Of a DNA stretch of 64,000 nt, positions 24,001 to 64,000 are shown piece after piece; the stretch's first letter is position 1; each line of letters starts with the position of its first letter. Source of the stretch: Closterium sp. NIES-65 (Eukaryota; Streptophyta; Zygnematophyceae; Desmidiales; Closteriaceae); contig CANXME010000496.1 in the NCBI GenBank assembly GCA_948144175.1, forward strand, positions 31,514 through 95,513, written 5' to 3'. The notes beneath the pieces were generated by a model. That model was given only the letters and a program-made list of their open reading frames with translations. It was not told the DNA's origin and made no database searches. Made by a program: the position numbers and the translations under genes.

Positions 24001-27000
24001 AAATTGCAAGAACAAGTGCCCACCATGTGCAAAATTGCAAGAACAAGGGCCCAGCGTATGCAAAATTGCAAGAACAAGGGCTCAACGTGTGCAAAATTGC
24101 AAGAACAAAGGCCCAGCGAGTGCAAAATTGCAAGGACAAGCGCCCAGCGTGTGAAAAATTGCAAGAACAAGGGCCCAGAGTGTGCAAGATTGGAAGAACA
24201 AGGGCCCAGCGTGTGCAAAATGGCAAGAACAAGGGCCTAGCGAGTGCAAAATTGAAAGAACAAGGGCCCAGCGAGTGCAAAATTGCAAGAACAAGGGCCC
24301 AGCGTGTGCAAGATTGGAAGAACAAGGGCCCAGTGTGTGCAAAATTGCAAGAACAAGGGCCCAGTGAGTGCAAAATTGCGAGAACAACGGCCCACTGAGT
24401 GCAAAATTGCAAGAACAAGGGCCCAGCGAGTGCAAAATTGCAAGAACAAGGGCCCAGCGTGTGCAAATTTGCAAGAACAAGGGCCCAGCGAGTGCAAAAT
24501 TGAAAGAACAAGGGCCCACCGTGTGCAAAATTGCAAGAACAAGGGCCCAGCGAGTGCAAAATTGAAAGAATAAGGGCCCAGCATGTGCAAAATTGCAAGA
24601 ACAAGAGCCCAGCATGTGCAAGATTGGAAGAACAAGGGCCCAGCGTGTGCAAAATTGCAAGAACAAGTGCCCAACGTGTGCAAAATTGCAAGAACAAGGG
24701 CCCAGCGAATGCAAAATTGCAAAAACAAGGGCCCGGCGTGTGCAAAATTGCAAGAACAAGGGCCAAGTGAGTGCAAAATTGCAAGAACAAGGGCCCACTG
24801 AGTGCAAAATTGCAAGAACAAGGGCCCAGCATATGCAAAATTGCAAGAACAAGGGCCCAGCGTGTGCAAAATTGCAAGAACAAGGGCCCAGTGAGTGCAA
24901 AATTGCAAGAACAAGGGCCCTGAGAGTGCAAAATTGCAAGAACAAGGGCCCAACGTGTGCAAAATTGCAAGAACAAGTGCCCAGCATGTGCAAAATTGCA
25001 AGAACAAGGGCCAAGCGTATGCAAAATTGCAAGAACAAGGGCCCAGCGTGTGCAAAATTGCAAGAACAAGGGCCCAGCGAGTGCAAAATTGCAAGAACAA
25101 GGGCCCAGCGAGTGCAAAATTGCAAGAACAAGGGCCCAGCGTGTGCAAGATTGGAAGAACAAGGGCCCAGCGTGTGCAAAATTGCAAGAACAAGGGCCCT
25201 GGGAGTGCAAAATTGAAAGAACAAGGGCCCAGCGTGTGCAAAATTGCAAGAACAAGGGCCTAGTGAGTGCAAAATTGCAAGAACAAGGGCCCCGCGAGTG
25301 CAAAATTGCAAGAACAAGGGCCCAACGTGTACAAAATTGCAAGAACAAGTGCCCACCATGTGCAAAATTGCAAGAACAAGGGCCCAGCGTATGCAAAATT
25401 GCAAGAACAAGGGCCCAACGTGTGCAAAATTGCAAGAACAAAGGCCCAGCGAGTGCAAAATTGCAAGGACAAGCGCCTAGCGTGTGCAAAATTGCAAGAA
25501 CAAGGGCCCAGTGTGTGCAAGATTGGAAGAACAAGGGCCTAGCGTGTGCAAAATGGCAAGAACAAGGGCCCAGCGAGTGCAAAATTGAAAGAACAAGGGC
25601 CCAGCGAGTGCAAAATTGCAAGAACAAGGGCCCAGCGTGTGCAAGATTGGAAGAACAATGGCCCAGCGTGTGCAAAATTGCAAGAACAAGGGCCCAGCAA
25701 GAGCAAAATTGAAAGAACAAGGGCCCAGCGTGTGCAAAATTGCAAGAACAAGGGCCCAGTGAGTGCAAAATTGCGAGAACAACGGCCCACTGAGTGCAAA
25801 ATTGCAAGAACAAGGGCCCAGCGAGTGCAAAATTGCAAGAACAAGGGCCCAGCGTGTGCAAATTTGCAAGAACAAGGGCCCAGCGAGTGCAAAATTGAAA
25901 GAACAAGGGCCCACCGTGTGCAAAATTGCAAGAACAATGGCCCAGCGAGTGCAAAATTGAAAGAACAAGGGCCCAGCATGTGCAAAATTGCAAGAACAAG
26001 GGCCCAGCATGTGCAAGATTGGAAGAACAAGGGCCCAGCGTGTGCAAAATTGCAAGAACAAGTGCCCAACGTGTGCAAAATTGCAAGAACAAGGGCCCGG
26101 TGAGTGCAAAATTGCAAGAACAAGGGCCCACTGAGTGCAAAATTGCAAGAACAAGGGCCCAGTGTTTGCAAAATTGCAAGAACAAGGGCCCAGCGTGTGC
26201 ACAATCGCAAGAACAAGGGCCCAGTGAGTGCAAAATTGCAAGAACAAGGGCCCAGCGAGTGCAAAATTGCAAGAACAAGGGCCCAACGTGTGCAAAAATG
26301 TGTGTGCAAAATTGCAAGAACAAGGGCCCAGCGTGTGCAAAATTGCAAGAACAAGGGCCCAGCATGTGCAAAATTGCAAGAACAAAGGCCCAGCGAGTGC
26401 AAAAGTGCAAGGACAAGGGCCCAGCGTGTGCAAAATTGCAAGAACAAGGGCCCAGAGTGTGCAAGATTGGAAGAACAAGGGCCCAGCGTGTGCAAAATTG
26501 CAAGAACAAGGGCCCACCGATTGCAAAATTGAAAGAACAAGGGCCCAGCGAGTGCAAAATTGCAAGAAGAAGGGCCCAGCGAGTGCAAAATTGCAAGAAG
26601 AAGGGCCCAACGTGTGCAAAATTGCAAGAACAAGTGCCCAGCGTGTGCAAAATTGCAAGAACAAGGGCCCAGCGTATGCAAAATTGCAAGAACAGGGGCC
26701 CAGCATGTGCAAAATTGCAAGAACAAAGGCCCAGCGAGTGCAAAAGTGCAAGGACAAGGGCCCAGCGTGTGCAAAATTGCAAGAACAAGGGCCCAGAGTG
26801 TGCAAGATTGGAAGAACAAGGGCCCAGAGTGTGCAAGATTGCAAGAACAAGGGCCCAGCGTGTGCAAGATTGGAAGAACAAGGGCCCAGCCTGTGCAAAA
26901 TTGCAAGAACAAGGGCCCAGCGTGTGCAAGATTGGAAGAACAAGGGCCCAGCGTGTGCAAAATTGCACGAACAAAGGCCCAGCGAGTGCAAAATTGAAAG

Positions 27001-29777
27001 AACAAGGGCCCAGCGTGTGCAAAATTGCAAGAACAAGGGCCCAGTGAGTGCAAAATTGCGAGAACACGGGCCCACTGAGTGCAAAATTGCAAGAACAAGG
27101 GCCCAGTGAGTGCAAAATTGCAAGAACAAGGGCCCAGCGAGTGCAAATTTGCAAGAACAAGGGCCCAGGGTGTACAAAATTGCAAGAACAAGGGCCCAGC
27201 GTGTGCAAAATTGCAAGAACAAGGGCCCAGCGTGTGCAAAATTGCAAGAACAAAGGCCCAGCAAGTGCAAAAGTGCAAGGAAAAGGGCCCAGCGTGTGCA
27301 AAATTGCAAAAACAAGGGCCCAGAGTGTGCAAAATTGAAAGAACAAGGGCCCAGCGAGTGCAAAATTGCAAGAACAAGGGCCCAGCGTGTGCAAGATTGG
27401 AAGAACAAGGGCCCAGCGTGTGCAAAATTGCAAGAACAAGTGCCCAGCGAGTGCAAAATTGAAAGAACAAGGGCCCAGCGAGTGCAAAATTGCAAGAACA
27501 AGGGCCCAGCGTGTGCAAGATTGGAAGAACAAGGGCCCAGCGTGTGCAAAATTGCAAGAACAAGTGCCCAGCCTGTGCAAAATTGCAAGAACAAGGGCCC
27601 AGCGTGTGCAAAATTGAAAGAACAAGGGCCCAGCGTGTGCAAAGTTGCAAGAACAAGGGCCCAGCGAGTGCAAAATTGAAAGAACAAGGGCCGAGCGAGT
27701 GCAAAATTGCAAGAACAAGGGCCCAGTGTGTGCAAGATTGGAAGCACAAGGGCCCAGCGTGTGCAAAATTGCAAGAACAATTTCCCAGCGTGTGCAAAAT
27801 TGCAAGAACAAGGGCCAAGCGTGTGCAAAATTGCAAGAACAAGGGCCGAGCGAGTGCAAAATTGAAAGAACAAGGGCCCAACGTGTGCAAAATTGGAAGA
27901 ACAAGGGCCCAGCGTGTGCAAAATTGCAAGAACAAGGGCCCAGCGAATGCAAAATTGCAAGAACAAGGGCCCAGCGTGTGGAAAATGGCAAGATAAAGGG
28001 CCCAGCGTGTGCAAATTTGCAAGAACAAGTGCCCAGCGTGTGCAAAATTGCAAGAACAAGGGCCCAGTGTGTGCAAAATTGCTAAACAAGGGCCCAGCTT
28101 GTGCAAAATTGCAAGAACAAGGGCCCAGAGTGTGCAAGATTGGAAGAACAAGGGCCCAGCGTGTGCAAAATTGCAAGATCAAGGGCCCAGCGAGTGCAAA
28201 ATTGAAAGAACAAAAGCCCAGCGAGTGCAAAACTGCAAGAACAAGGGCCCAGAGTGTGCAAGATTGGAAGAACAAGGGCCCAGCGTGTGCAAAATTGCAA
28301 GAACAAGGGCCCAGCGAGTGCAAAATTGAAAGAACATTGGCCCAGCAAGTGCAAAATTGCAAGAACAAGGGCCCAGCGTGTGCAAGATTGGAAGAACAAG
28401 GGCCCAGCGTGTGCAAAATTGCAAGAACAAGGGCCCAACGAGTGCAAAATTGAAAGAGCAAGGGCCCAGCTTGTGCAAAATTGCAAGAACAATGGCCCAG
28501 TGAGTGCAAAATTGCAATAAGAAGGGCCCACTGAGTGCAAAATTGCAAGAACAAGGGCCCAGCGTGTGCAAAATTGCAAGAACAAGGGCCCAGCGTGTGC
28601 AAATTTGCAAGAACAAGTGCCCAGCGTGTGCAAAATTGCAAGAATAAGGGCCCAGTGTGTGCAAAATTGCAAGAACAAGGGCCTTGCTTGTGCAAAGTTG
28701 CAAGAACAAGGGCCCAAAGTGTGCAAGATTGGAAGAACAAGGGCCCATCGTGTGCAAAATTGCAAGATCAAGGGCCCAGCGAGTGCAAAATTGAAAGAAC
28801 AAGGGCCCAGCGAGTGCAAAACTGCAAGAACAAGGGCCCAACGTGTGCAAGATTGGAAGAACAAGAGCCCAGCGTGTGCAAAATTGCAAGAACAAGGGCC
28901 CAGGGAGTGCAAAATTGAAAGAACAAGGGCCCAGCGAGTGCAAAATTGCAAGGACAAGGGCCCATCGTGTGCAAGATTGGAAGAACAAGGGCCCAGCGTG
29001 TGCAAAATTGCAAGAACAAGGGCCCAGCGAGTGCAAAATTGAAAGAACAAGGGCCCAGCCTGTGCAAAATTGCAAAAACAAGGGCCCAGTAAGTGCAAAA
29101 ATGCAAGAACAAGGGCCCACTGAGTGCAAAATTGCAAGAACAAGGGCCTTGGGAGTGCAAAATTGAAAGAACAAGGGCCCAGCATGTGCAAAATTGCAAG
29201 AACAAGGGCCCATTGAGTGCAAAATTGCAAGAACAAGGGCCCAACGAGTGCAAAATTGCAAGAACAAGGGCCCAACGTGTACAAAATTGCAAGAACAAGT
29301 GCCCAGCATGTGCAAAATTGCAAGAACAAGGGCCCAACGAGTGCAAAATTGAAAGAACAAGGGCCCAGCTTGTGCAAAATTGCAAGAACAAGGGCCCAGC
29401 GTGTGCAAGATTGGAAGAACAAGGGCCCAGCGTGTGCAAAATTGCAAGAACAAGGGCCCAACGAGTGCAAAATTGAAAGAACAAGGGCCCAGCTTGTGCA
29501 AAATTGCAAGAACCAGGGCCCAGCGAGTGCAAAATTGCAAGAACAAGGGCCCGGCGTGTGCAAGATTGGAAGAACAAGGGCACAGCGTGTGCAAAACTGC
29601 AAGAAAAAGGGCCCAGCGAGTGCAAAATTGAAAGAACAAGGGCCCAGCTTGTGCAAAATTGCAAGAACAATGGCCCAGTGAGTGCAAAATTGCAAGAACA
29701 AGGGCCCACTGAGTGCAAAATTGCAAGAACAAGGGCCCAGCGTGTGCAAAATCGCAAGAACAAGGGCCCAGCGTGTG
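21053..29777 (+). repeat. 31-bp satellite array, block 2a
   Basis: Same satellite and same strand as block 1, but richer in GAGTG, TTGAAAG and GATTGGAAG variants, and without the 30-bp and 34-bp monomers of 7.8-16.9 kb. The part before about 25.4 kb carries the 16-monomer variant family also seen at 3.6-7.3 kb. The part after it belongs to the 19.8-kb composite repeat. One irregular spot near 26295 has an extra GTGTGTGCAAAA. No gene or foreign insert was seen. Confidence 0.97.
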
Positions 29778-29852
29778 GTTTTAACGGGTTATTGAATAGT
29801 GTTTAGCAAAAATATTTCTATATATTTTTTTTGCATATGACCAACGAATGAT
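29778..29852. other. AT-rich non-satellite island (unit A)
   Basis: About 75 bp unrelated to the satellite, with TATATATTTTTTTT near its centre. Satellite resumes on the right in the same orientation. It is the only unrelated sequence inside the satellite blocks besides Copia, and it recurs at 49571-49645. It is too short for a gene. It could be a relic of older flanking DNA or of another element; its origin is unknown. Confidence 0.85.
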
Positions 29853-31929
29853 TTTGCAAGATTAAGTGCCCAGCGTGTGCAAAATTGCAAGAACAAGGGC
29901 CCAGTGTGTGCAAAATTGCAAGAACAAGGGCCTAGCTTGTGCAAAATTGCAAGAACAAGGGCCCAGAGTGTGCAAGATTGGAAGAACAAGGGCCCAGCGT
30001 GTGCAAAATTGCAAGATCAAGGGCCCAGCGAGTGCAAAATTGAAAGAACAAGGGCCCAGCGAGTGCAAAACTGCAAGAACAAGGGCCCAACGTGTGCAAG
30101 ATTGGAAGAACAAGAGCCCAGCGTGTGCAAAATTGCAAGAACAAGGGCCCAGCGAGTGCAAAATTGAAAGAACAAGGGCCCAGCGAGTACAAAATTGCAA
30201 GAAAAAGGGCCCATCGTGTGCAAGATTGGAAGAACAAGGGCCCAGCGTGTGCAAAATTGCAAGAACAAGGGCCCAGCGAGTGCAAAATTGAAAGAACAAG
30301 GGCCCAGCTTGTGCAAAATTGCAAAAACAAGGGCCCAGTAAGTGCAAAATTGCAAGAACAAGGGCCCACTGAGTGCAAAATTGCAAGAACAAGGGCCTTG
30401 GGAGTGCAAAATTGAAAGAACAAGGGCCCAGCATGTGCAAAATTGCAAGAACAAGGGCCCAGAGAGTGCAAAATTGCAAGAACAAGGGCCCAGCGAGTGC
30501 AAAATTGCAAGAACAAGGGCCCAACGTGTACAAAATTGCAAGAACAAGTGCCCAGCATGTGCAAAATTGCAAGAACAAGGGCCCAGCGTATGCAAAAGTG
30601 CAAGAACAAGGGCCAGCGTGTGCAAAATTGCAAGAACAAAGGCCCAGCGAGTGCAAAAGTGCAAGGACAAGGGCCCGGCGAATGCAAAATTGCAAGAACA
30701 AAGTCCCAGCGAACGCAAAATTGCAAGAACAAAGGCCCAGTGTCTGCAAAAATGCAAGAACAAGGGCCCAGCTTGTGCAAAATTGCAAGAACAAGGGCCC
30801 AGCGAGTGCAAAATTGCAAGAACAAGGGCCCAACGAATGCAAAATTTCAAGCACAAAGGCCCAGCGTGTGCAAAAATGCAAGAACAAGGGCCCAGTGTGT
30901 GCAAAATTGCAAGAACAAGGGCCCAGCGTGTGCAAAATTGCAAGAACAAGGGCCAAGCGTGTGCAAAATTGCAAGAACAAACGCCGAGGGAGTGCAAAAT
31001 TGCAAGGACAAGGGCCCAGCGAGTGCAAGATTGGAAGAACAAGGGCCCAGCGTGTGCAAAATTGCAAGAACAAGGGCCCAGCGAGTGCAAAATTGAAAGA
31101 ACAAAGGCCCAGCGTTAGCAAAATTGCAAGATAAAGGGCCCGACGTGTGCAAAATTGCAAGAACAAAGGCCCAGTGTCTGCAAAAATGCAAGAACAAGGG
31201 CCCAGCTTGTGCAAAATTGCAAGAACAAGGGCCCAGCGAGTGCAAAATTGCAAGAACAAGGGCCCAACGAATGCAAAATTGCAAGCACAAAGGCCCAGCG
31301 TGTGCAAAAATGCAAGAACAAGGGCCCAGCGTGTGCAAAATTGCAAGAACAAGCGCCCAGCGTGTGCGAAATTGCAAGAACAAGGGCCAAGCGTGTGCAA
31401 AATTGCAAGAACAAACGCCGAGGGAGTGCAAAATTGCAAGGACAAGGGCCCAGCGTGTGCAAAATTGCAAGAACAAGAGCCCAGCGTGTGCAAGATTGGA
31501 AGAACAAGGGCCCAGCGTGTGCAAAATTGCAAGAACAAGGGCCCAGCGAGTGCAAAATTGAAAGAACAAAGGCCCAGCGTTAGCAAAATTGCAAGATAAA
31601 GGGCCCGACGTGTGCAAAATTGCATGAACAAGGGCCCAGCGTATGCAAAAGTGCAACAACAAGGGCCCAGCGAGTGCAAAAAAGCAAGAACAAGGGCTCA
31701 CCGTGTGCACACTTGCAAGAACAAGGGCCCAGCGTGTGCAAAAGTGCAAGAACAAGGGCCCAGCGAGTGCAAAATTGCAAGAACAAGGGCTCACCGTGTG
31801 CACACTTGCAAGAACAAGGGCCCAGCGAGTGCAAAATTGCAAGAACAAGGGCCCAGCGTGTGCAAAATTGCAAGAACAAGGGCCCAGTGTGTGCAAAATT
31901 GCAAGAACAAGGGCCCAGTGTGTGCAAAA
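29853..31929 (+). repeat. 31-bp satellite array, block 2b
   Basis: Satellite between the AT island and Copia copy 3. From about 30.6 kb a new set of variants appears: GCAAAAATGCAAG monomers and, near the element, GTGCACACTTGCAAG monomers following GGGCTCACCG. The last four monomers before the Gag tail have the same variant order as those before copies 2 and 4. No gene was seen. Confidence 0.97.
30720..31590 (+). repeat. About 434-bp satellite HOR, two copies
   Basis: A 14-monomer string that includes CCCAGTGTCTGC, then ATGCAAAATT.CAAGCAC, then AACGCCGAGGGAG recurs after about 434 bp (14 x 31). The marker GTGTCTGC is at about 30739 and again at about 31171. The same pair is present in unit B about 19793 bp to the right. 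Confidence 0.75.
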
Positions 31930-34113
31930 GTGTCGCAGATGCAACAGTGCACCAAGATCATCTCGGTGCTCGACAAGTCGTGGGACAACCTCATCCCCAC
32001 CCTCAACGTTCAGCAGGACAAATGGACGCCTGAGTGGCTGCGGCATCAGATTCTGCAAGAGGACTTCCGCAGGCGCCACACGGGAGGTGGTGCTGCAAAC
32101 AAAACTGCTGAGGGGTATGGAGCTGCAGGAGGCAGCAGAGGAAGAGGGGGAGGGAGAGGCCGAGGCCGTGGGAGAGGCTTTGACAGAGGGAGAGGCCGAG
32201 GTGACTACAATGAGGGGCATGGGAGCTCTGGTGGCAGGGGGAGCACCCGAATGGAGGGTGCGTGCTGGTACTGCAAGAAGGCTGGACACCCGTGGTTCAA
32301 GTGTTTCAGCCGGCCTGAGGGATGGGCCCCTCCAGGCATGAAGCCGCCAAGTGGTGAACGTGCACGCGGTGGCGCTGTGCAAGGATCAGGTGCACAAGGT
32401 GATGGTGCACAAGGTAAAGCCGACCCTGGGATGTTCCTCATGGTTGAGGATGTGCAAGGGAGTGGGGGTGATGTGGGTTCAGTTGGGAAGGTTGTGATGC
32501 ACCCCCTCACTCACTGGGTGATCGATTCAGGTTGCACGAGTCATATGACCCCACGGGCAGATTTGCTTGATGAGGTAAAACCTCCTGGGAAGATCAAGTT
32601 TGTGGCTGCCGCTTCAGGTGCTTTGCTCCCTGTGATTGGTGTTGGGAATGCTAAGGTGATGGGAGCCAATGGAGAGCTTGTGGGGCTTGGGAATGTGCTG
32701 TTGGTTGAAGGTTTGTCCGCTAACCTTCTTTCTGTGCGCCGGCTGCAGAAGAGCAAGGCTGAAGTTACCTTCGGCCCAACCAGCTGCCGTGCAAAGCTTG
32801 GGAAGTTGCTGCTGTGGAACTTGGAGGAGAAGAGCAGCTGCATCAAGGACCTGTGGCAGCTGCCCATCATCCCTTGGAAGGGGAAACCACCAGCAACAGC
32901 AAAGGCAGCGGGAGCGGCTAAAGCAACTGCGGGAGGAGAGGAGTCTGCACCAACTGCTGCGGCCATGGATGCAGTCAAGAAGGTGCAGCAGCCACAACAG
33001 CCACATGGTGAGGTGCTTGCTGGTGTGGATGCGACAGCTGCATGGGCAAAGGCTTCATCTGGGAGTGGTGAGGCTGATTGGGAGACGTGGCATGAGAGGC
33101 TGTGCCATGTGAACATTCCTATGCTGCAGAAGTTGGTTAAGGATGGGTGCTTGAAGGGGCTGGAGGTGAAGGGGGGAGCAAAGGAGATTGGGAGCTGCCC
33201 TACCTGCCTTGAGACCAAATTCACGAAGTTTCCCTTCAGCAGCAGCACAGGACCAGCCAAGGCACCACTTGCACTAGTACACATGGATGTGGTGGGCCCC
33301 ACGAGGGCCCTTTCTCTCTCGGGAAGCCGCTACTTCTTGACAATTGTGGACGACCACACACGTGCGGTGTGGGTGTACCCTCTCAAGACTAAGGGGGAGG
33401 TGGCAGCGGCTGTTCTTAAGGAGTGGATGCCGAGAGCACAAAGGGAGAGCGGACACAAGGTGAAGGTGATCCGCACTGACAACGGAGGAGAGTTCATCGG
33501 CGCTGATTTTGAGAAGGAGCTGAAGCGGAAGGGGATCCAGCATCAGCTCACAGTGCCTTACAACCCTCAGCAGAATGGCGTGGCTGAGCGGTTCAACCGG
33601 ACCCTGCAGGAAGGTGCTCGCACTCTCCTTGGGCGTGCAGGGCTGCCGGATCCGTTTTGGGTGACAGCACTGCGGCAGGTCGTTGTTGTGAAGAACCGGG
33701 TGCTGGCGACTGTGGGGGACAAGCAATGGGTCCCCTACACCAAGTGGTATGGGAGTGCGCCTGCAGTCAACATGCTGAGAACTTATGGCTGCATGGTGGT
33801 GTTTCATGTGCCTAAGGAGAAGAGGGGAAAACTGGAAGCTTCTGGGAGATGGGGTGTGCACTTGGGGCTTGCTAAGGATCACAAGGGCTGGCTGATTTGG
33901 GACTTGACCAGCCAGCAGCTGACTGTGTCAAGGAATGTGAAGTTCCTTGAGTCCTTGTACTACAAAGAGTGAAAGCAGCAGCAGCAGCAGAAGCTTCCTA
34001 CGACACCGCTAATTGTCGAGGCCGATGAGGTGCAGCGGCCTTCGAGGCAGGTGGAGGTTTGTGTCTCCAAGGAGGAGATCTCTGGGGTGACTGATGATGG
34101 GGGAGAACCTGAG

Positions 34114-34149
<36 letters not shown>

Positions 34150-35968
34150 CAAGGTGCTCCACAAGGTGCCGGACGTACGGCTGACCGTCCTAGGAGGGAT
34201 GTGCGCCCTCCTAACATGCTGACCTATGCAAGCCGTGGCAAGCCAAAGGTGGTGAGGGCTGGGAGTGTGGCTGAGTAGTGTGATGAGGATGAGATAGCAC
34301 ACTGCTACTGGGCAGCCGTCCCTGAGCCCAAGACGCTAGCTGATGGGAGCGGCAGGGTGTGCAGGCTGAAGAAGGCCATCTATGGCCTGAAGCAGGCTCC
34401 TCGTGCATGGTACCACAAGTTAGAGGAGACTCTGCTGGCTGGGGGTTTCAAGAAGAGTGAGTGTGATCACAGCTTGTTCCTGCTGCAGGAGAAGGAGCAG
34501 TTTCTCATGCTCCTGGTGTATGTGGACGACATCCTGCTCTTCTCTGATTCGTCTGCAATGATTGAGCATGTGGAGGAGATGCTGGAGATGCAGTTCAAGT
34601 GCTCCAAGATGGGAGATGTGAAGTACTATTTAGGGATGCATGTGGAGAGGGACCTTGACAAGGGAATGTTGAGGTTGCACCAGAGAAAGTATTGTGAGGG
34701 GCTGGCTGAGAAGTATGGGCTGCAAGATGGAGGAAAGCCAGCCACCCCACTGCCTTCGGGGTTCACTGTGGAGCCCTGTGCTGATGAGGAGGTGGTGGGT
34801 GAGAGTGACAGGAAACTTTTTCATTCCATGGTTGGGGCACTCAACTATGCGGCTAACCACACACGGCCTGACATTGGCTTTGCAACATCCAGGCTTGCCA
34901 GTGTGGTTTCACGCCCCAGTCATGAGCAGCTGGAAGCGGCCAAGAGGTTGGTCCGCTATGTGAGTGCAACGGCATCAGTGGGTTTGGAGTACAGTGCTGT
35001 GAGGCAGAGGCTGCAGAGGGGTGCAGCTGATTTGAGCAAGGGGAGATGCTCCTGAACTGCTACACTGACGCTAGCTTCAACTCGGTGAAAGTGGATGGCA
35101 CCAGCATTGGAGGCTATGTGTGCCTGTTCGGAGGTGGTGCAGTGAGCTGGCGCAGTAAGAAGTAGAATGAAGTGGGGCAGTCCTCGTGTGAGACAGAGTA
35201 CATGGCCCTGCATCATGGGGCAAAGGAGGTGGTGTGGCTGAGGCTTTGTTGGAGGAGATTGGAGTTGGTCAGAGGAGCCGACTGTGATTTTCTGTGACAA
35301 TGAGTCGGCGGTGAGATGCTCCAACCGTGGAAAGCCAGAGAAAGTATTGTGAGGGGCTGGCTGAGAAGTATGGGCTGCAAGATGGAGGAAAGCCAGCCAC
35401 CCCACTGCCTTCGGGGTTCACTGTGGAGCCCTGTGCTGATGAGGAGGTGGTGGGTGAGAGTGACAGGAAACTTTTTCATTCCATGGTTGGGGCACTCAAC
35501 TATGCGGCTAAATGCTCCTGAACTGCTACACTGACGCTAGCTTCAACTCGGTGAAAGTGGATGGCACCAGCATTGGAGGCTATGTGTGCCTGTTCGGAGG
35601 TGGTGCAGTGAGCTGGCGCAGTAAGAAGTAGAATGAAGTGGGCAAGTCCCTCGTGTGAGACAGAGTACATGGCCCTGCATCATGGGGCAAAGGAGGTGGT
35701 GTGGCTGAGGCGTTTGTTGGAGGAGATTGGAGTTGGTCAGAGGGAGCCGACTGTGATTTTCTGTGACAATGAGTCGGCGGTGAAGCTAGCGAAGAATGCT
35801 TGTCTTCATGGGCTGACCAAACACATCAGGCCTAAGTGGCACTGGGTGAGAAGGCTCCTGGACAAGGAGGTGCGGCTGGAGATTGTGAAGACCCATCAGC
35901 AGGCGGCTGACATTCTCACCAAGCGCCTGGCTGAATCTGAGCATTGGAAGGGCATGAAGCTTGCTTGA
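31930..35968 (+). pseudogene. Copia gag-pol remnant (copy 3)
   Basis: The same domain order as the family, with landmarks 14729 bp right of copy 2 up to integrase: CCHC knuckle near 32263-32304, protease DSG near 32524, integrase D-D-E at 33286, 33478 and 33586. A linker with nine CAG codons follows (34120-34146). Reverse transcriptase has YGLKQAPRAWY near 34380-34412 and YVDD at 34519-34530. RNase H and the Copia C-terminal block ADILTKRL end near 35968. The coding part is broken. The upstream satellite reads open into the Gag tail, as in copies 2 and 4. Confidence 0.92.
34120..34146 (+). repeat. CAG microsatellite (nine units) in Copia copy 3
   Basis: Nine perfect CAG units that would encode polyglutamine in the linker between integrase and reverse transcriptase. 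A shorter run of five CAG lies at about 33976-33990. The same tract with the same unit number is in copy 4, which agrees with a recent common origin. Confidence 0.9.
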
Positions 35969-35999
35969 GCTATGACATGTGGGATGATGGTTGGCAGCC

Positions 36000-36009
36000 A
36001 GAGGGGGAG
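36000..36009 (+). promoter_or_regulatory. Polypurine tract of Copia copy 3
   Basis: AGAGGGGGAG two bases before the LTR, as in the other copies. Confidence 0.8.
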
Positions 36010-36011
36010 TT

Positions 36012-51722: not shown

Positions 51723-53906
51723 GTGTCGCAGATGCAACAGTGCACCAAGATCATCTCGGTGCTCGACAAGTCGTGGGACAACCTCATCCCCACCCTCAAC
51801 GTTCAGCAGGACAAATGGACGCCTGAGTGGCTGCGGCATCAGATTCTGCAAGAGGACTTCCGCAGGCGCCACACGGGAGGTGGTGCTGCAAACAAAACTG
51901 CTGAGGGGTATGGAGCTGCAGGAGGCAGCAGAGGAAGAGGGGGAGGGAGAGGCCGAGGCCGTGGGAGAGGCTTTGACAGAGGGAGAGGCCGAGGTGACTA
52001 CAATGAGGGGCATGGGAGCTCTGGTGGCAGGGGGAGCACCCGAATGGAGGGTGCGTGCTGGTACTGCAAGAAGGCTGGACACCCGTGGTTCAAGTGTTTC
52101 AGCCGGCCTGAGGGATGGGCCCCTCCAGGCATGAAGCCGCCAAGTGGTGAACGTGCACGCGGTGGCGCTGTGCAAGGATCAGGTGCACAAGGTGATGGTG
52201 CACAAGGTAAAGCCGACCCTGGGATGTTCCTCATGGTTGAGGATGTGCAAGGGAGTGGGGGTGATGTGGGTTCAGTTGGGAAGGTTGTGATGCACCCCCT
52301 CACTCACTGGGTGATCGATTCAGGTTGCACGAGTCATATGACCCCACGGGCAGATTTGCTTGATGAGGTAAAACCTCCTGGGAAGATCAAGTTTGTGGCT
52401 GCCGCTTCAGGTGCTTTGCTCCCTGTGATTGGTGTTGGGAATGCTAAGGTGATGGGAGCCAATGGAGAGCTTGTGGGGCTTGGGAATGTGCTGTTGGTTG
52501 AAGGTTTGTCCGCTAACCTTCTTTCTGTGCGCCGGCTGCAGAAGAGCAAGGCTGAAGTTACCTTCGGCCCAACCAGCTGCCGTGCAAAGCTTGGGAAGTT
52601 GCTGCTGTGGAACTTGGAGGAGAAGAGCAGCTGCATCAAGGACCTGTGGCAGCTGCCCATCATCCCTTGGAAGGGGAAACCACCAGCAACAGCAAAGGCA
52701 GCGGGAGCGGCTAAAGCAACTGCGGGAGGAGAGGAGTCTGCACCAACTGCTGCGGCCATGGATGCAGTCAAGAAGGTGCAGCAGCCACAACAGCCACATG
52801 GTGAGGTGCTTGCTGGTGTGGATGCGACAGCTGCATGGGCAAAGGCTTCATCTGGGAGTGGTGAGGCTGATTGGGAGACGTGGCATGAGAGGCTGTGCCA
52901 TGTGAACATTCCTATGCTGCAGAAGTTGGTTAAGGATGGGTGCTTGAAGGGGCTGGAGGTGAAGGGGGGAGCAAAGGAGATTGGGAGCTGCCCTACCTGC
53001 CTTGAGACCAAATTCACGAAGTTTCCCTTCAGCAGCAGCACAGGACCAGCCAAGGCACCACTTGCACTAGTACACATGGATGTGGTGGGCCCCACGAGGG
53101 CCCTTTCTCTCTCGGGAAGCCGCTACTTCTTGACAATTGTGGACGACCACACACGTGCGGTGTGGGTGTACCCTCTCAAGACTAAGGGGGAGGTGGCAGC
53201 GGCTGTTCTTAAGGAGTGGATGCCGAGAGCACAAAGGGAGAGCGGACACAAGGTGAAGGTGATCCGCACTGACAACGGAGGAGAGTTCATCGGCGCTGAT
53301 TTTGAGAAGGAGCTGAAGCGGAAGGGGATCCAGCATCAGCTCACAGTGCCTTACAACCCTCAGCAGAATGGCGTGGCTGAGCGGTTCAACCGGACCCTGC
53401 AGGAAGGTGCTCGCACTCTCCTTGGGCGTGCAGGGCTGCCGGATCCGTTTTGGGTGACAGCACTGCGGCAGGTCGTTGTTGTGAAGAACCGGGTGCTGGC
53501 GACTGTGGGGGACAAGCAATGGGTCCCCTACACCAAGTGGTATGGGAGTGCGCCTGCAGTCAACATGCTGAGAACTTATGGCTGCATGGTGGTGTTTCAT
53601 GTGCCTAAGGAGAAGAGGGGAAAACTGGAAGCTTCTGGGAGATGGGGTGTGCACTTGGGGCTTGCTAAGGATCACAAGGGCTGGCTGATTTGGGACTTGA
53701 CCAGCCAGCAGCTGACTGTGTCAAGGAATGTGAAGTTCCTTGAGTCCTTGTACTACAAAGAGTGAAAGCAGCAGCAGCAGCAGAAGCTTCCTACGACACC
53801 GCTAATTGTCGAGGCCGATGAGGTGCAGCGGCCTTCGAGGCAGGTGGAGGTTTGTGTCTCCAAGGAGGAGATCTCTGGGGTGACTGATGATGGGGGAGAA
53901 CCTGAG

Positions 53907-53942
<36 letters not shown>

Positions 53943-55295
53943 CAAGGTGCTCCACAAGGTGCCGGACGTACGGCTGACCGTCCTAGGAGGGATGTGCGCC
54001 CTCCTAACATGCTGACCTATGCAAGCCGTGGCAAGCCAAAGGTGGTGAGGGCTGGGAGTGTGGCTGAGTAGTGTGATGAGGATGAGATAGCACACTGCTA
54101 CTGGGCAGCCGTCCCTGAGCCCAAGACGCTAGCTGATGGGAGCGGCAGGGTGTGCAGGCTGAAGAAGGCCATCTATGGCCTGAAGCAGGCTCCTCGTGCA
54201 TGGTACCACAAGTTAGAGGAGACTCTGCTGGCTGGGGGTTTCAAGAAGAGTGAGTGTGATCACAGCTTGTTCCTGCTGCAGGAGAAGGAGCAGTTTCTCA
54301 TGCTCCTGGTGTATGTGGACGACATCCTGCTCTTCTCTGATTCGTCTGCAATGATTGAGCATGTGGAGGAGATGCTGGAGATGCAGTTCAAGTGCTCCAA
54401 GATGGGAGATGTGAAGTACTATTTAGGGATGCATGTGGAGAGGGACCTTGACAAGGGAATGTTGAGGTTGCACCAGAGAAAGTATTGTGAGGGGCTGGCT
54501 GAGAAGTATGGGCTGCAAGATGGAGGAAAGCCAGCCACCCCACTGCCTTCGGGGTTCACTGTGGAGCCCTGTGCTGATGAGGAGGTGGTGGGTGAGAGTG
54601 ACAGGAAACTTTTTCATTCCATGGTTGGGGCACTCAACTATGCGGCTAACCACACACGGCCTGACATTGGCTTTGCAACATCCAGGCTTGCCAGTGTGGT
54701 TTCACGCCCCAGTCATGAGCAGCTGGAAGCGGCCAAGAGGTTGGTCCGCTATGTGAGTGCAACGGCATCAGTGGGTTTGGAGTACAGTGCTGTGAGGCAG
54801 AGGCTGCAGAGGGGTGCAGCTGATTTGAGCAAGGGGGAGATGCTCCTGAACTGCTACACTGACGCTAGCTTCAACTCGGTGAAAGTGGATGGCACCAGCA
54901 TTGGAGGCTATGTGTGCCTGTTCGGAGGTGGTGCAGTGAGCTGGCGCAGTAAGAAGTAGAATGAAGTGGGGCAGTCCTCGTGTGAGACAGAGTACATGGC
55001 CCTGCATCATGGGGCAAAGGAGGTGGTGTGGCTGAGGCGTTTGTTGGAGGAGATTGGAGTTGGTCAGAGGGAGCCGACTGTGATTTTCTGTGACAATGAG
55101 TCGGCGGTGAAGCTAGCGAAGAATGCTTGTCTTCATGGGCTGACCAAACACATCAGGCCTAAGTGGCACTGGGTGAGAAGGCTCCTGGACAAGGAGGTGC
55201 GGCTGGAGATTGTGAAGACCCATCAGCAGGCGGCTGACATTCTCACCAAGCGCCTGGCTGAATCTGAGCATTGGAAGGGCATGAAGCTTGCTTGA
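51723..55295 (+). pseudogene. Copia gag-pol remnant (copy 4)
   Basis: Landmarks lie 19793 bp right of copy 3 through integrase and reverse transcriptase: CCHC knuckle near 52056-52097, protease DSG near 52317, integrase first Asp at 53079, nine CAG codons at 53913-53939, and YVDD at 54312-54323. RNase H with TDASF (near 54860) and FCDNE follows, then ADILTKRL near the end at 55295. Roles are those of the Copia family. The coding part is broken and does not form one continuous polyprotein. Confidence 0.92.
53913..53939 (+). repeat. CAG microsatellite (nine units) in Copia copy 4
   Basis: Same nine CAG units as in copy 3. Equal length of a fast-changing tract supports very recent separation of the two copies. 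Confidence 0.9.
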
Positions 55296-55326
55296 GCTAT
55301 GACATGTGGGATGATGGTTGGCAGCC

Positions 55327-55336
55327 AGAGGGGGAG
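55327..55336 (+). promoter_or_regulatory. Polypurine tract of Copia copy 4
   Basis: AGAGGGGGAG two bases before the LTR start. Confidence 0.8.
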
Positions 55337-55338
55337 TT

Positions 55339-56210
55339 TGTTGAGTGATGCTACCATTCGCATTCACGTCTGTCTGCCTCCCATCATATGTTCGTGCGTT
55401 GCATGCGTGTTGTGAGTGTGTGCAGAAATTTGTGTTTTGTGCGGTTTGGTTTTTCTGAGTGTGTGTGTGTGTGAATGTTATTTGGCTTGAGCAGATATCT
55501 GAAGTGACTCCTCTGCTCAAGAGCTTTCCGAGGAACCAAGTATCGCTTCAATCGGAGCACGAACAAGAAAGTTACGAACGTTGGAGTTCGTATGCTTTTG
55601 ATATTTGGTTGTGGTGACTATGGGAAGTTGTGGGGTTGACTCAATATGGGGTACAGACTTTTGAGGGTTGGGAAATTCGTCTTTTCTACTGTATTTGCTG
55701 CCAAATGGTTGGGAGAAACCAAACCAGGCTGGCAAGTGTGGCCAAGTTGGGTTGAGGTGGATTATGGAGGTTGGGATAGTGACAAAGGTCAAAGTTGGGT
55801 TGCCTATGGGGAAGGGAATTGTATGGCATGGGGTTTCCTTGGTTGGGGACTCTCTTGGGACCTTCCCTCTCGTCCTCCTCATCCCTTCCACCTGGTTTAG
55901 TGCTACTCCAATTTCTCTTGTGTGAACTTGTGTAAACTTTGTGATTGAGTTAAGATTCTATGGCAGCATACCCCCTAGTGCGCCGAACTTGATAGCTCAA
56001 GAAATACTTCACCTTTTCGCATGTATTAACTTGGGAATTGTAGCCACGGAGTAGAGCTACAACATATTCGAGTTTGATGAAGTTTTGACTGTGAACTTTT
56101 TGTCGACGGCGTTTCTTGTGAACTCGACTTTTCTGTTCAGAAACTAGGCCCAACGATGTTGAGATATTTTGGCTACTAATCTTCATAGACTCGGTCCTCA
56201 GTCTCTAACA
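55339..56210 (+). repeat. 3' LTR of Copia copy 4
   Basis: TGTTGAG to CTCTAACA, 872 bp, the same length as the LTR of copy 3. Satellite (CAAAATTGCAAG) follows directly. Confidence 0.88.
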
Positions 56211-59200
56211 CAAAATTGCAAGAACAAACGCCCAGCGACTGCAAAATTGCAAGGACAATGGCCCAGCGTGTGCAAAATTGCAAGAACAAGAGCCCAGCGT
56301 GTGCAAGATTGGAAGAACAAGGGCCCAGCGTGTGCAAAATTGCAAGAACAAGGGCCCAGCGAGTGCAAAATTGAAAGAACAAAGGCCCAGCGTTTGCAAA
56401 ATTGCAAGAACAAGGGCCCGACGTGTGCAAAATTGCATGAACAAGGGCCCAGCGTGTGCAAAAGTGCAACAACAAGGGCCCAGCGAGTGCAAAAATGCAA
56501 GAACAAGGGCTCACCACGTGCACACTTGCAAGAACAAGGGCGCAGCGTGTGTAAAAGTGCAAGAACAAGGGCCCAGCGTGTGCAAAATTGAAAGAACAAG
56601 GGCCCAGCGTGTACAAAATTGCAAGAACAAAGGCCAAGCGTGTGCTAAATTGCAAGAACAAGGGCCCAGCGTGTGCACACTTGCAAGAACAAGGGCCCAG
56701 CGAGTGCAAAATTGCAAGAACAAGGGCCCAGCGTGTTCAAAATTGCAAGAACAAGGGCCCAATGTGTGCAAAATTGCAAGAACAAGGGCCCAGCGAGTGC
56801 AAATTTGCCAGAACAAGGGCCCAGCGAGTGCAAAATGGCAAGAACAAGGGCCCTGCGTGTGCAAAATTGCAAGAACAAGGGCCCACCGTGTGCACAATTG
56901 CAAGAACAAAGGCCCAGCGTGTGCATAAGTGCAAGAACAAGGGTCCGGCGTGTGCAAAATTGCAAGAACAAAGGCCCAGCGAGTGCAAAATTGCAAGGAC
57001 AAGGGCCCTGCGTGTGCGAAATTGCAAGAACAAGGGCCCAGCGTGTGCAAAATTGCGAGAACAAGTGCCCAGCGTGTGCAAAATTGCAAGAACAAAGGCC
57101 CAGCGAGTGCAAAATTGCAAGGACAAGGGCCCAGCGTGTGCAAATTTGCAAGAACAAGGGCCCAGCGTGTGCAAGATTGGAAGAACAAGGACCCAGCGTG
57201 TGCAAAATTGCAAGAACAAGGGCCCAGCGAGTGCAAAATTGAAAGAACAAGGGCCCAGCGTGTGCAAAATTGCAAGAACAAGGGCCCAACGTGTGCAAAA
57301 TTGCAAGAACAAGGGCCCAGCGAGTGCAAAATTGCAAGAACAAGGGCCTAATGACTGCAAAATTGCAAGAACAAAGGCCCAGCGTGTGCAAAAATGCAAG
57401 AACAAGGGCCCACGGAGTGCAAAATTGAAAGAACAAGGGCCCAGCGTGTGCAAAATTGCAAGAACAAGGGCTCGATGTGTGCAAAATTGCAAGAACAAAG
57501 GCCCAGCGAGTGCAAAACTGCAAGAACAAGGGCCGAGCAAATGCAAAATTGCAAGATCAAAGGCCCAGCGTGTGCAAAAATGCAAGAACAAGGGCCCAGC
57601 ATTTGCAAAATTGCGAGAACAAGGGCCCAGCGTGTGCAAAAGTGCAAGAACAAGGGCCGAGCGAGTGCAAAATTGCAAGAACAAGGGCTCACCGTGTGCA
57701 AAATTGCAAGAGCAAGGGCCCAGCGTGTGCAAAATTGCAAGAACAAGGGCCCAGCGAGTGCAAAATTGCAAGAACAAGGGCCCAGCGAATGCAAAATTGC
57801 AAGAACAAAGGCCTAGCGTGTGCAAAAATGCAAGAACAAGGGCCCTGCGTGTGCAAAATTGCGAGAACAAGGGCCCAGTGTGTGCAAAAGTGCAAGAACA
57901 AGGGCCCAGCGAGTGCAAAATTGCAAGAACAAGGCTCACCGTGTGCAAAATTGTAAGAACAAGGGCCTAGCGTGTGCAAAATTGCAAGAACAAGGGCCCA
58001 GCGTGTGCAAAATTGCAAGAACAAGGGCCCAGCGTGTGCAAAATTGCAAGAACAAGGGCCCAACGTGTGCAAAATTGCAAGAGCAAGGGCCCAGCGTGTG
58101 CACACTTGCAAGAACAAGGGCCCAGCGTATGCAAAATTGCAAGAACAAGGGCCCGACGTGTGCCAAATTGCAAGAACAAGGGCCCAACGAGTGCAAAATT
58201 GCAAGAACAAGGGCCCAGCGAGTGCAAAATTGCAAGAACAAGAGCCCAGCGTGTTCAAAATTGCAAGAACAAGGGCCCAGCGTGTGCAAAATTGCAAGAA
58301 AAAGGGCCCACGAGTGCAAAATTGCAAGAACAAGGGCCCAGCGAGTGCAAAATTGCAAGAACAAGGGCCCTGCGTGTGCAAAATTGCAAGAACAAGGGCC
58401 TACCGTGTGCAAAATTGCAAGAACAAAGGCCCAGCGTGTGCAAAATTGCAAGAACAAGGGCCCAGCGTGTGCAAAATTGCAAGAACAAGGGCTGACTCTG
58501 TGCAAAATTGCAAGAACAAGGGCCCAGCGTGTGCAAAATTGCAAGAACAAGGGCCCAGGAAGTGCAAAATTGCAAGATTAAGGGCCCAGCAAATGCAAAA
58601 TTGCAAGAACAAAGGCCCAGCGTGTGCAAAAATGCAAGAACAAGGGCCCAGCGTGTGCAAAATTGCGAGAACAAGGGCCCAGCGAGTGCAAAATTGCAAG
58701 AACAAGGGCCCAGCGAATGCAAAATTGCAAGAACAAAGGCCCAGCGTGTGCAAAAATGCAAGAACAAGGGCCCAGCGTGTGCAAAATTGCGAGAACAAGG
58801 GCCCAGCGAGTGCAAAATTGCAAGAACAAGGGCCCATCGAATGCAAAATTGCAAGAACAAAGGCCTAGCGTGTGCAAAAATGCAAGAACAAGGGCCCTGC
58901 GTGTGCAAAATTGCGAGAACAAGGGCCCAGTGTGTGCAAAAGTGCAAGAACAAGGGCCCACCGAGTGCAAAATTGCAAGAACAAGGGCTCACCGTGTGCA
59001 AAATTGTAAGAACAAGGGCCCAGCGTGTGCAAAATTGCAAGAACAAGGGCCCAACGTGTGCAAAATTGCAAGAACAAGGGCCCAGCGTGTACAAAATTGC
59101 AAGAACAAGGGCCCAGCGTGTGCAAAATTGCAAGAGCAAGGGCCCAGCGTGTGCACACTTGCAAGAACAAGGGCCCAGCGTGTGCAAAATTGCAATAACA

Positions 59201-62200
59201 AGGGCCCGACGTGTGCCAAATTGCAAGACAAGGGCCCAGCGAGTGCAAAATTGCAAGAAAAAGGGCCCAGCGAGTGCAAAATTGCAAGAACAAGTGCCCA
59301 ACGTGTTCAAAATTGCAAGAACAAGGGCCCAGCGTGTGCAAAATTGCAAGAACAAGGGCCCACGAGTGCAAAATTGCAAGAACAAGGGCCCAGCGAGTGC
59401 AAAATTGCAAGAACAAGGGCCCTGCGTGTGCAAAATTGCAATACAAGGGCCTACCGTGTGCAAAATTGCAAGAACAAAGGCCCAGCGTGTGCAAAATTGC
59501 AAGAACAAGGGCCCAGCTTGTGCAAAATTGCAAGAACAAAGGCCCAGCGAGTGCAAAATTGCAAGGACAAGGGCCTAGCGTGTGCAAAATTGCAAGAACA
59601 AGGGCCCAGCGTGTGCAAAATTGCAAGAACAAGGGCTGACTCTGTGCAAAATTGCAAGAACAAGGGCCCAGCGTGTGCAAAATTGCAAGAACAAAGGCCC
59701 AGGAAGTGAAAAATTGCAAGAACAAGGGCCCAGCGAATGCAAAATTGCAAGAACAAAGGCCCAGCGTGTGCAAAAATGCAAGAACAAGGGCCCAGCGAGT
59801 GCAAAATTGCAAGAACAAGGGCCCAGCGAATGCAAAATTGCAAGAACAAAGGCCCAGTGTGTGCAAAAATGCAAGAACAAGGGCCCAGCGTGTGCAAAAT
59901 TGCGAAAACAAGGGCCCAGCGAGTGCAAAATTGCAAAAACAAGGGCCCATGGAATGCAAAATTGCAATAACAAAGGCCAAGCGTGTGCAAAAATGCAAGA
60001 ACAAGGGCCCGGCGTGTACAAAATTGCAAGAACAAGGGCCCAGCGAATGCAAAATTGCAAGGACAAAGGCCCAGTGTCTGCAAAAATGCAAGAACAAGGG
60101 CCCAGCGTGTGCAAAATTGCAAGAACAAGGGCCCAGCGAGTGCAAAATTGCAAGAACAAGGGCCCAACGAATGCAAAATTGCAAGAACAAAGGCCCAGCG
60201 TATGCAAAAATGCAAGAACAAGGGCCCAGCGTGTGCAAAATTGCAAGAACAAGGGCCCAGCGTGTGCAAAATTGCAAGAACAAGGGCCAAGCGTGTGCAA
60301 AATTGCAAGAACAAACGCCCAGCAAGTGCAAAATTGCAAGGACAAGGACCCAGCGTTGGCAAAATTGCAAGAACAAGAGCCTAGAGTGTGCAAGATTGGA
60401 AGAACAAGGGCCCAGCGTGTGCAAAATTGCAAGAACAAGGGCCCAGCGAGTGCAAAATTGAAAGAACAAAGGCCCAGCGTTTGCAAAATTGCAAGAACAA
60501 GGGCCCGACGTGTGCAAAATTGCATGAACAAGGGCCCAGCGTGTGCAAAAGTGCAACAACAAGGGCCCAACGAGTGCAAAAATGCAAGAACAAGGGCTCA
60601 CCGTGTGCACACTTGCAAGAACAAGGGCCCAGCGTGGGCAAAAGTGCAAGAACAAGGGCCCAGCGAGTGCAAAATTGCAAGAACAATGGCTCACCGTGTG
60701 CACACTTGCAAGAACAAGGGCCCAGCGTGTGCAAAATTGCAAGAACAAGGGCCCAGAGTGTGCAAGATAGGAAGAACAAGGGCCCAGCGTGTGCAAAATG
60801 GCAAGAACAAGGGCCTAGCGAGTGCAAAATTGAAAGAACAAGGGCCCAGCGAGTGCAAAATTGCAAGAACAAGGGCCCATCGTGTGCAAGATTGGAAGAA
60901 CAAGGGCCCAGCGTGTGCACAATTGCAAGAACAAGGGCCCAGCAAGAGCAAAATTGAAAGAACAAGGGCCCAGCGTGTGCAAAATTGCAAGAACAAGGGC
61001 CTAGTGAGTGCAAAATTGGGAGAACAACGGCCCACTGAGTGCAAAATTGCAAGAACAAGGGCCCAGCGAGTGCAAAATTGCAAGAACAAGGGCCCAGCGT
61101 GTGCAAAATTGCAAGAACAAGGGCCCAGCGTGTGCAAAACTGCAAGAACAAGGGCTGACTCTGTGCACAATTGCAAGAACAAGGGCCCAGCGTGTGCAAA
61201 ATTGCAAGAACAAAGGCCCAGGAAGTGCAAAATTGCAAGAACAAGGGCCCAGCGAATGCAAAATTGCAAGAACAAAGGCCCAGCGTGTGCAAAAATGCAA
61301 GAACAAGGGCCCAGCGAGTGCAAAATTGCAAGAACAAGGGCCCAGCGAATGCAAAATTGCAAGAACAAAGGCCCAGCGTGTGCAAAAATGCAAGAACAAG
61401 GGCCCAGCGTGTGCAAATTTGCGAAAACAAGGGCCCAGCGAGTGCAAAATTGCAAGAACAAGGGCCCATCGAATGCAAAATTGCAATAACAATGGCCAAG
61501 CGTGTGCAAAAATGCAAGAACAAGGGCCCGGCGTGTACAAAATTGCAAGAACAAGGGCCCAGCGAATGCAAAATTGCAAGAACAAAGGCCCAGGGTCTGC
61601 AAAAATGCAAGAACAAGGGCCCAGCGTGTGCAAAATTGCAAGAACAAGGGCCCGGCGAGTGCAAAATTGCAAGAACAAGGGCCCAACGAATGCAAAATTG
61701 CAAGAACAAAGGCCCAGCGTATGCAAAAATGCAAGAACAAGGGCCCAGCGTGTGCAAAATTGCAAGAACAAGGGCCCAGCGTGTGCAAAATTGCAAGAAC
61801 AAGGGCCAAGCGTGTGCAAAATTGCAAGAACAAACGCCCAGCAAGTGCAAAATTGCAAGGACAAGGACCCAGCGTTGGCAAAATTGCAAGAACAAGAGCC
61901 TAGAGTGTGCAAGATTGGAAGAACAAGGGCCCAGCGTGTGCAAAATTGCAAGAACAAGGGCCCAGCGAGTGCAAAATTGAAAGAACAAAGGCCAGCGTTT
62001 GCAAAATTGCAAGAACAAGGGCCCGACGTGTGCAAAATTGCATGAACAAGGGCCCAGCGTGTGCAAAAGTGCAACAACAAGGGCCCAACGAGTGCAAAAA
62101 TGCAAGAACAAGGGCTACCATGTGCACACTTGCAAGAACAAGGGCCCAGCGTGTGCAAAAAGCGCAAGAACAAGGGCCCATCGAGTGCAAAATTGCAAGA

Positions 62201-64000
62201 ACAACGGCTCACCGTGTGCACACTTGCAAGAACAAGGGCCCAGCTTGTGCAAAATTGCAAGAACAAGGGCCTAGTGAGTGCAAAATTGCAAGAACAAGGG
62301 CCCAGCGAGTGCAAAATTGCAAGAACAAGGGCCCAACGTGTACAAAATTGCAAGAACAAGTGCCCACCCATGTGCAAAATTGCAAGAACAAGGGCCCAGC
62401 GTATGCAAAATTGCAAGAACAAGGGCCCAACGTGTGCAAAATTGCAAGAACAAAGGCCCAGCGAGTGCAAAAGTGCAAGGACAAGCGCCCAGTGTGTGCA
62501 AAATTGCAAGAACAAGGGCCCAGAGTGTGCAAGATAGGAAGAACAAGGGCCCAGCGTGTGCAAAATGGCAAGAACAAGGGCCTAGCGAGTGCAAAATTGA
62601 AAGAACAAGGGCCCAGCGAGTGCAAAATTGCAAGAACAAGGGCCAAGCGTGTGCAAGATTGGAAGAACAAGGGCCCAGCGTGTGCAAAATTGCAAGAACA
62701 AGGGCCCAGCAAGAGCAAAATTGAAAGAACAAGGGGCCCAGCGTGTGCAAAATTGCAAGAACAAGGGCCCAGTGAGTGCAAAATTGCCGAGAACAACGGC
62801 CCACTGAGTGCAAAATTGCAAGAACAAGGGCCCTGCGAGTGCAAAATTGCAAGAACAATGGCCCAGCGTTGTGCAAATTTGCAAGAACAAGGGCCCAGCG
62901 AGTGCAAAATTGAAAGAACAAGGGCCCACCGTGTGCAAAATTGCAAGAACAAAGGCTCAGCGAGTGCAAAATTGAAAGAACAAGGGCCCAGCATGTGCAA
63001 ATTGCAAGAACAAGGGCCCAGCATGTGCAAGATTGGAAGAACAAGGCCCAGCGTGTGCAAAATTGCAAGAACAAGTGCCCAACGTGTGCAAAATTGCAAG
63101 AACAAGGGCCCAGTGAGTGCAAAATTGCAAGAACAAGGGCCCACTGAGTGCAAAATTGCAAGAACAAGGGCCCAGGGTATGCAAAATTGCAAGAACAAGG
63201 GCCCAGCGTGTGCACAATTGCAAGAACAAGGGCCCAGTGAGTGCAAAATTGCAAGAACAAGGGCCCAGCGAGTGCAAAATTGCAAGAACAAGGGCCCAAC
63301 GTGTGCAAAATTGCAAGAACAAGTGCCCAGTGTGTGCAAAAATTGCAGAACAAGGGCCCTGCGTGTGCAAAATTGCAAGAACAAGGGCCCTGCATGTGCA
63401 AAATTGCAAGAACAAAGGCCCAGCGAGTGCAAACGTGCAAGGACAAGGGCCCAGCGTGTGCAAAATTGCAAGAATTAGGGCCCTGAGTGTGCAAGATTGG
63501 AAGAACAAGGGCCCAGCGTGTGCAAAATTGCAAGAACAAGGGCCCCAGCGATTGCAAAAATTGAAAGAACAAGGGCCCAGCGAGTGCAAAATTGCAAGAA
63601 CAAGGGCCCAGCGAGTGCAAAATTGCAAGAACAAGGGCCCTACGTGTGCAAAATTGCAAGAACAAGTGCCCAGCGTGTGCAAAATTGCAAGAACAAGGGC
63701 CCAGCGTGTGCAAAATTGCAAGAACAAGGGCCAGCATGTGCAAAATTGCAAGAACAAAGGCCCAGCGAGTGCAAAAGTGCAAGGACAAGGGCCCTGCGTG
63801 TGCAAAATGCAAGAACAAGGGCCCAGAGTGTGCAAGATTGGAAGAACAAGGGCCCAGCGTGTGCAAAATTGCAAGAACAAGGGCCCAGTGAGTGCAAAAT
63901 TGCAAGAACAAAGGCCCAGCGAGTGCAAAATTGCAAGAACAAGGCCCAGCGTGTGCAAAATTGGAAGAACAAGGGCCCAGCGTGTGCGAAATTGCAAGAA
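56211..64000 (+). repeat. 31-bp satellite array, block 4 (runs off the window)
   Basis: Counterpart of 36884-44640. Up to about 61.98 kb it keeps a constant 19327-bp offset from unit A, meaning no net length change over more than 5 kb. Beyond that, one extra monomer near 62.3 kb and many one-base length changes appear. No gene or foreign insert was seen. Confidence 0.97.

Follow-up and report, generated by a model that had tools for sequence, protein, structure and literature searches.

The last 38 kb or so of the window, by which we mean the whole stretch of 64,000 nucleotides of Closterium sp. NIES-65 analysed here (C496:31514-95513, its right edge coinciding with the end of contig C496), are made of two near-identical copies, A and B, of one block of roughly 19.4 kb, set head to tail and combining a 31-bp satellite with a truncated Copia retroelement. 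The arrangement is best understood, and we hold this with considerable confidence, as the result of a single Copia insertion that decayed and was then duplicated by out-of-register exchange: a recent tandem duplication and not, as assembled, a long higher-order array. The window was compared with itself, with the rest of C496, with contigs C1169 and C1429 and with Copia copies elsewhere in the assembly (874 Mb, 2,400 contigs). The features on which the argument relies are as follows, in window coordinates, all on the forward strand.

1-2350 (+): 3' portion of Copia E1, which begins at contig position 27,519, has both LTRs and is an insertion distinct from the others
2408-64000 (+): 31-bp satellite array, delimited with TRF and interrupted by the Copia copies
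17201-21052 (+): Copia E2, an older sister with the satellite-gag junction of E3 and a further internal deletion
25403-45164 (+): unit A, whose match to B begins at 25403, with satellite, an AT-rich island, the truncated Copia E3 and more satellite in that order
29773-29850 (+): AT-rich island of A, 71% A+T over the 77 bp measured
31930-36883 (+): Copia E3 of unit A, 5'-truncated and starting inside gag, 3' LTR at 36012-36883
35182-35648 (+): 467-bp insert of E3, shuffled pieces of its own element
45165-64000 (+): unit B, cut at the window edge, the rest being read in contig C1169
46903-46933 (+): extra 31-bp monomer of B, from the A/B alignment
49566-49644 (+): AT-rich island of B, the counterpart of that of A
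51723-56210 (+): Copia E4 of unit B, without the 467-bp insert

Extent and structure of the tandem block

Aligned from 25301, A and B differ by 19 mismatches, eight of which lie left of 25403, outside the shared block, where the two sides diverge at the satellite background rate; the other 11 lie inside it, up to 43009. The same comparison made within C1169 (bases 1804 to 38500) gives 11 substitutions over 17,336 aligned bp (6.35e-4), nine of these 11 sites being identical in the two comparisons. The sites peculiar to C496 are 25659 and 43004, the latter beside the second 31-bp length difference, and the two peculiar to C1169 are further right than those of the C496 comparison. The head-to-tail repetition of a satellite-plus-Copia unit, proposed in the first-pass annotation, is thereby borne out, as is the presence of a retroelement remnant inside the repeating unit (E3 and E4) and that of an AT-rich island and a Copia element at matching places. 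The three successive offsets given there could be reproduced and explained. The offset is 19,762 from 25403 onward; it becomes 19,793 past the extra monomer at 46903, because B has one monomer more, reaches 19,794 in the interval delimited by single-base indels at 29783 and 31585, and falls to 19,327 past the 467 bp found only in E3 (35182-35648), because of this insert in the Copia of A.

The joint between the two copies, at 45165-45180, lies inside one monomer and keeps the 31-bp phase. Read beyond the window edge, B still matches A up to C1169:38652; it is therefore complete, ending about 0.5 kb past the window. An intervening stretch of 2.7 kb of unrelated satellite between the copies was considered and ruled out, single-base errors at the end of C496 having masked the match. 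With outer flanks that differ and one novel joint, the pair has the makeup of a recent tandem segmental duplication.

How far this exceeds what a satellite would show by itself can be judged from its monomers. In-phase monomers have a mean pairwise identity of 0.888 (3,000 random pairs from the 2,377 monomers with exact 31-bp spacing in the whole of contig C496); this value was used as background, and a shuffled-monomer control (identity 0.41) was set aside, since monomers of other lengths break the phase. A and B, at 0.9994, exceed this background and so match far beyond what satellite alone gives. This bears on their description as a higher-order repeat, which stands in one respect only: the blocks are ordered and far more alike than monomers, as in such arrays, but instead of many tandem copies the assembly holds two in tandem and one elsewhere, with no third in the next 10 kb. 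Of the 53 satellite blocks of 500 bp inside A/B, 42 have a best partner that lies over 1 kb off with an identity of 99% or more; upstream of A this holds for eight of 35, at offsets of 1.2-2.7 kb. Elsewhere in C496 shorter duplications are common, with offsets of 0.4-7.5 kb and, for some, perfect identity along hundreds of bases; A/B is the largest found in the contig.

The form of the satellite present in the window, GGGCCCAG, is a minor one: its 55-base dimer was counted 504 times genome-wide, when the 58-base dimer of the form GGGCCTAG was counted 26,373 times, about 52x the window's form by exact dimer count. This second form is seen at C4:114-148 kb and elsewhere. An Rfam scan of the window gave nothing at gathering score, and a literature text search on the monomer returned, within the portions of text available to it, no paper on this satellite and one match on a rice LTR element.

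The Copia elements and their junctions

All these elements belong to the Ty1/Copia type, as RVT_2 comes after the integrase in E1 and E3 and relatives have TG...CA LTRs and a 5-bp target duplication. Pfam profiles identify rve, gag_pre-integrs, Pol_BBD and SH3_retrovirus in E3, with RVT_2 from profile position 107 only; RVT_2 is complete in E1. E3 and E4, which show 0 mismatches over 4,505 aligned bases, both begin within gag, end in a 3' LTR of 872 bp, and are devoid of the 5' LTR and of part of RVT_2. The comparison of E2 with E3 gives 25 mismatches over 3,869 bp; agreement rises above background only in the element and about 150 bp of its left satellite flank, the right flanks agreeing at background level and the last stretch of the LTR being more divergent than the remainder, so that the duplication step linking E2 to E3 is weakly resolved. 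The LTRs of E1 differ at 14 of 754 aligned bases, its 3' stretch being cut a few bases beyond the LTR; its left flank ends in CAAAA, and its two sides do not match. To its right (2351-2412) the satellite is inverted for about two monomers, after which the array continues; the same inverted joint is present in C2117.

Two junctions deserve attention. At the left, satellite passes directly into gag. Forty element places were scored among 2,010 first-look candidates, and this junction was found in six of them (three in C496, two in C1169, one in C1429), the other 34 running on as element at the same point. Because the gag of E1 upstream of the junction point is unlike satellite and the two share only the bases AA, the joint looks like a microhomology deletion. 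At the right, the remnant reads ...TCTAACA and then, across the junction, CAAAA. Full-length satellite-borne relatives carry CAAAA or CAAAG on both sides as a 5-bp target duplication: among copies with both ends read, CAAAA in C2351, C849 and C1790 (the last two with an identical left flank) and CAAAG in C1944. The copy of C2316, with both LTRs outside satellite, has TTGCT at either end. In C351 (67745-67830), satellite ending in CAAAA is joined directly to the polypurine-tract region of the element, starting with TGTTG, which would fit a deletion between the TGTTG of the LTR start and an inner TGTTG.

It might be thought that the family chooses its place within the monomer. Three pattern scans, looking for an exact LTR end beside satellite, yielded 23 matches, of which 12 are right ends in the same orientation, seven are left ends and four are right ends in the opposite orientation. 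The CAAAA register accounts for 15 of the 23 (9, 4 and 2, seven of those nine reading CGAAA), AGAAC for five (3 and 2), the remaining three being elsewhere; many of these 23 repeat an insertion already represented, and two contigs, C1891 and C2351, contribute both ends, so that the events are fewer than the junctions. The exact pattern misses the right ends of E1-E4, and left ends in the opposite orientation lie outside the scans. A preference for the CAAAA register is possible, a lead and not a result. The larger proposal that could be built on it, namely that this Copia family independently favours GTG^CAAAA in either orientation, and that insertions phased in this way then spread by repeated large duplications, helping to set the larger period of the array, we put forward as a tentative idea, with the odds against it.

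The 467-bp insert of E3

The insert that distinguishes E3 from E4 is made of pieces of the element itself, out of order: 177 bp at 100%, and stretches of 137 and 135 bp at 98.5%. E1, E2 and E4 all show the same gap where E3 carries it, and it is absent at the matching place in the first unit of C1169, otherwise free of substitutions relative to A away from the ends. In C1429 and in the second unit of C1169, the spacing from gag to LTR is 3,616 bp, as in E4, so that these copies also lack it. Missing from the four other unit copies measured, the insert may have arisen by a rearrangement peculiar to E3, or by faulty assembly.

Other contigs and the reality of the duplication

Bases 1-38115 of C1169 are collinear with window positions 25427-64000 through both units, in the order A-B. 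Seven substitutions separate the two contigs, and each lies either within 760 bases of the start of C1169 or within 100 of the end of C496; between these error-rich ends no substitution is seen, and the contigs differ by the 467-bp insert, by 3 bp at one place and by single-base indels. The single-base indels are dense near the end of C496 when it is compared with C1169, and likewise at the start of C1169 when it is compared with C496, and we read them as probable consensus errors at contig ends. At the nine A/B substitution sites common to the two comparisons, C1169 is as C496 in all nine, with A variants in the first unit and B variants in the second. Past B, this contig continues with 10 kb of satellite, without a third Copia or a continuing unit.

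Contig C1429 (33,526 bp) contains at least one copy of the unit, B-like and with another left flank. Over 5,001 bp it differs from B by two substitutions and two single-base indels, with one further substitution leftward (45279), and in the stretch compared it is of the B type at five substitution sites and has the extra monomer. Its left flank is that of A as far as 24469, apart from a length difference of 31 bp at one point, and is at background beyond; the contig ends 0.7 kb after its LTR. The copies of the unit present in the genome are at least those listed here, and further ones may exist.

C496 and C1169 may represent two haplotypes, or else parts of a single locus that overlap. As the same 38 kb are found in both, the assembly is redundant here and unit copy numbers are unsafe. 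Exactly round sizes are found in six of the 33 contigs whose length was noted (C1331, C1088, C993, C897, C1712 and C1052, of 30,000, 45,000, 52,500, 62,500, 3,395,000 and 7,475,000 bases), as if sequences had been cut at regular intervals once assembled.

These contigs allow us to weigh two other accounts of the pair. According to the first, a longer higher-order array exists but is mostly unassembled or collapsed, with A, B and the copy of C1429 as its visible members. That three distinct copies of the unit lie on contigs ending in satellite, one of which stops 0.7 kb after its LTR, would be expected of such an array, but the 10 kb of satellite that follows B, with neither a third Copia nor a continuing unit, and the left flank of the C1429 copy, which is not the end of another unit (1.9 kb being seen beyond the shared part), make it unlikely.

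According to the second, also raised in the first-pass annotation as the counterpart of a real recent duplication, there would be one unit in the genome, and two near-identical haplotypes or read sets would have been joined end to end by the assembler. The redundancy of the block in C496 and C1169 favours this explanation, together with the dense indels at contig ends, the suspicious shuffled insert and the round sizes of several satellite contigs (30,000, 45,000, 52,500 and 62,500), which suggest grid cutting after assembly; moreover, at window position 25659 the first unit of C1169 has the base of B, this site falling within its error-rich first 760 bases. Nevertheless, the two contigs agree in order and, away from their ends, in A- and B-specific variants; C1169 overlaps C496 for 38.1 kb, perhaps from the same reads or graph path, and this agreement is not fully independent support. 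The joint holds the 31-bp phase inside one monomer, and the copy of C1429, in another left context, is unexpected from simple end-to-end joining of haplotypes. We therefore consider false duplication improbable: the worry is mostly answered by C1169 and C1429, the pair is recent, and what persists of the objection is the redundancy of the assembly and the insert of E3. On these sequence grounds the A/B duplication is probably real and not an assembly mistake.

A last account, in which the satellite would be part of a giant retroelement with an internal tandem array and the units would have spread by transposition, is scarcely credible. In a separate scoring of 40 places the end of the element adjoins satellite in 32, the query having contained satellite, which favours such places. 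But among 20 LTR flanks hand-picked from 40 listed rows, omitting copies already read, 15 are other DNA, three satellite and two element interior; the element has the usual TG...CA termini and short target duplications; of the 40 places scored for the satellite-gag junction only six have it, all in three related contigs; and the copy of C2316, with both LTRs outside satellite, contradicts this account.

Origin of the block

Returning to the decay and duplication of a single insertion, we may propose the following succession of events. A Copia element would have inserted at a GTGCAAAA site of a 31-bp satellite monomer; its 5' LTR, the beginning of gag and a portion of the reverse transcriptase would then have been lost, in an order that we infer. 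The dead remnant, with its flanking satellite, would have been a passive passenger while the array underwent duplications: an older event would have set E2 apart from E3, and a recent one, an exchange joining two in-phase monomers some 19.4 kb from each other, would have produced A and B. Shared junctions, an in-phase joint, unit-specific variants and a third copy are what the contigs contain. The in-phase joint and the shared passenger Copia are compatible with an unequal exchange between sister arrays, or with a switch of template from one to the other. Unequal crossing-over may be responsible, or template switching in the course of repair or replication; unequal crossing-over, break-induced replication and other template switching would leave indistinguishable products here, the mechanism being deduced from these products. 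With 6.35e-4 differences between its copies, the A/B duplication came well after the separation of E2 and E3 (25/3,869) and the insertion of E1 (14/754), ages which are relative and which conversion between copies could make to appear younger by lowering the differences. No cellular function of the unit is needed or indicated.

Comparison with known systems

ATHILA elements of Arabidopsis centromeres were reportedly found, in a paper of 2023, to have been duplicated after insertion together with flanking satellite. As in A/B, an LTR element embedded in satellite is copied along with flanking monomers.

Two papers describe ATHILA in CEN178 arrays (PMC11410651) and higher-order repeats with cycles of ATHILA invasion (PMC12046899). 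There ATHILA is of the Ty3 type in a monomer of about 178 bp, whereas A/B has a Ty1/Copia element and a monomer of 31 bp (PMC12046899, PMC11410651). Higher-order repeats of alpha satellite and of CEN178 resemble A/B in that a block of several monomers is repeated with an identity far above that of the monomers (PMC12046899); they differ from it in that A/B, as assembled, consists of just two complete units in tandem, with one more on another contig, and in that its unit includes a 4.5-kb retroelement remnant. Closer to our case by their class, Tal1 and ATCOPIA93 are Copia family elements inserted in satellite arrays, those of the Arabidopsis centromeric satellite, and insertions of Tal1 are biased to satellite (PMC5857280). 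Unlike Tal1, the Copia considered here is mostly found elsewhere (15 of the 20 sampled flanks), and its remnant in the A/B unit is a dead passenger.

The inclusion of a retroelement in the repeating unit had been called uncommon for a satellite of such short monomer; this looks doubtful in the present genome, at least two other contigs having this Copia family at fixed spacings, judged from spacing only. In C1710, Copia gag and LTR end in satellite recur 38,208 bp apart (94.6-99.3 kb and 132.8-137.5 kb), which from this spacing alone is probably another large duplication containing a Copia element. In C897, Copia LTR ends (37.7, 42.4, 52.2 and 56.8 kb) are turned toward one another with satellite between them, and the facing pair recurs at a distance of exactly 14,475 bp on both strands: the block is duplicated and palindromic, whether in the genome or through the assembly.

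The A/B pair is an ordinary product of repeat arrays, an event of an already known kind. It has been caught early, while the joint is still legible together with the variants proper to each unit and the element carried along, and we can understand it as an example of how large periods arise in a satellite of short monomer.
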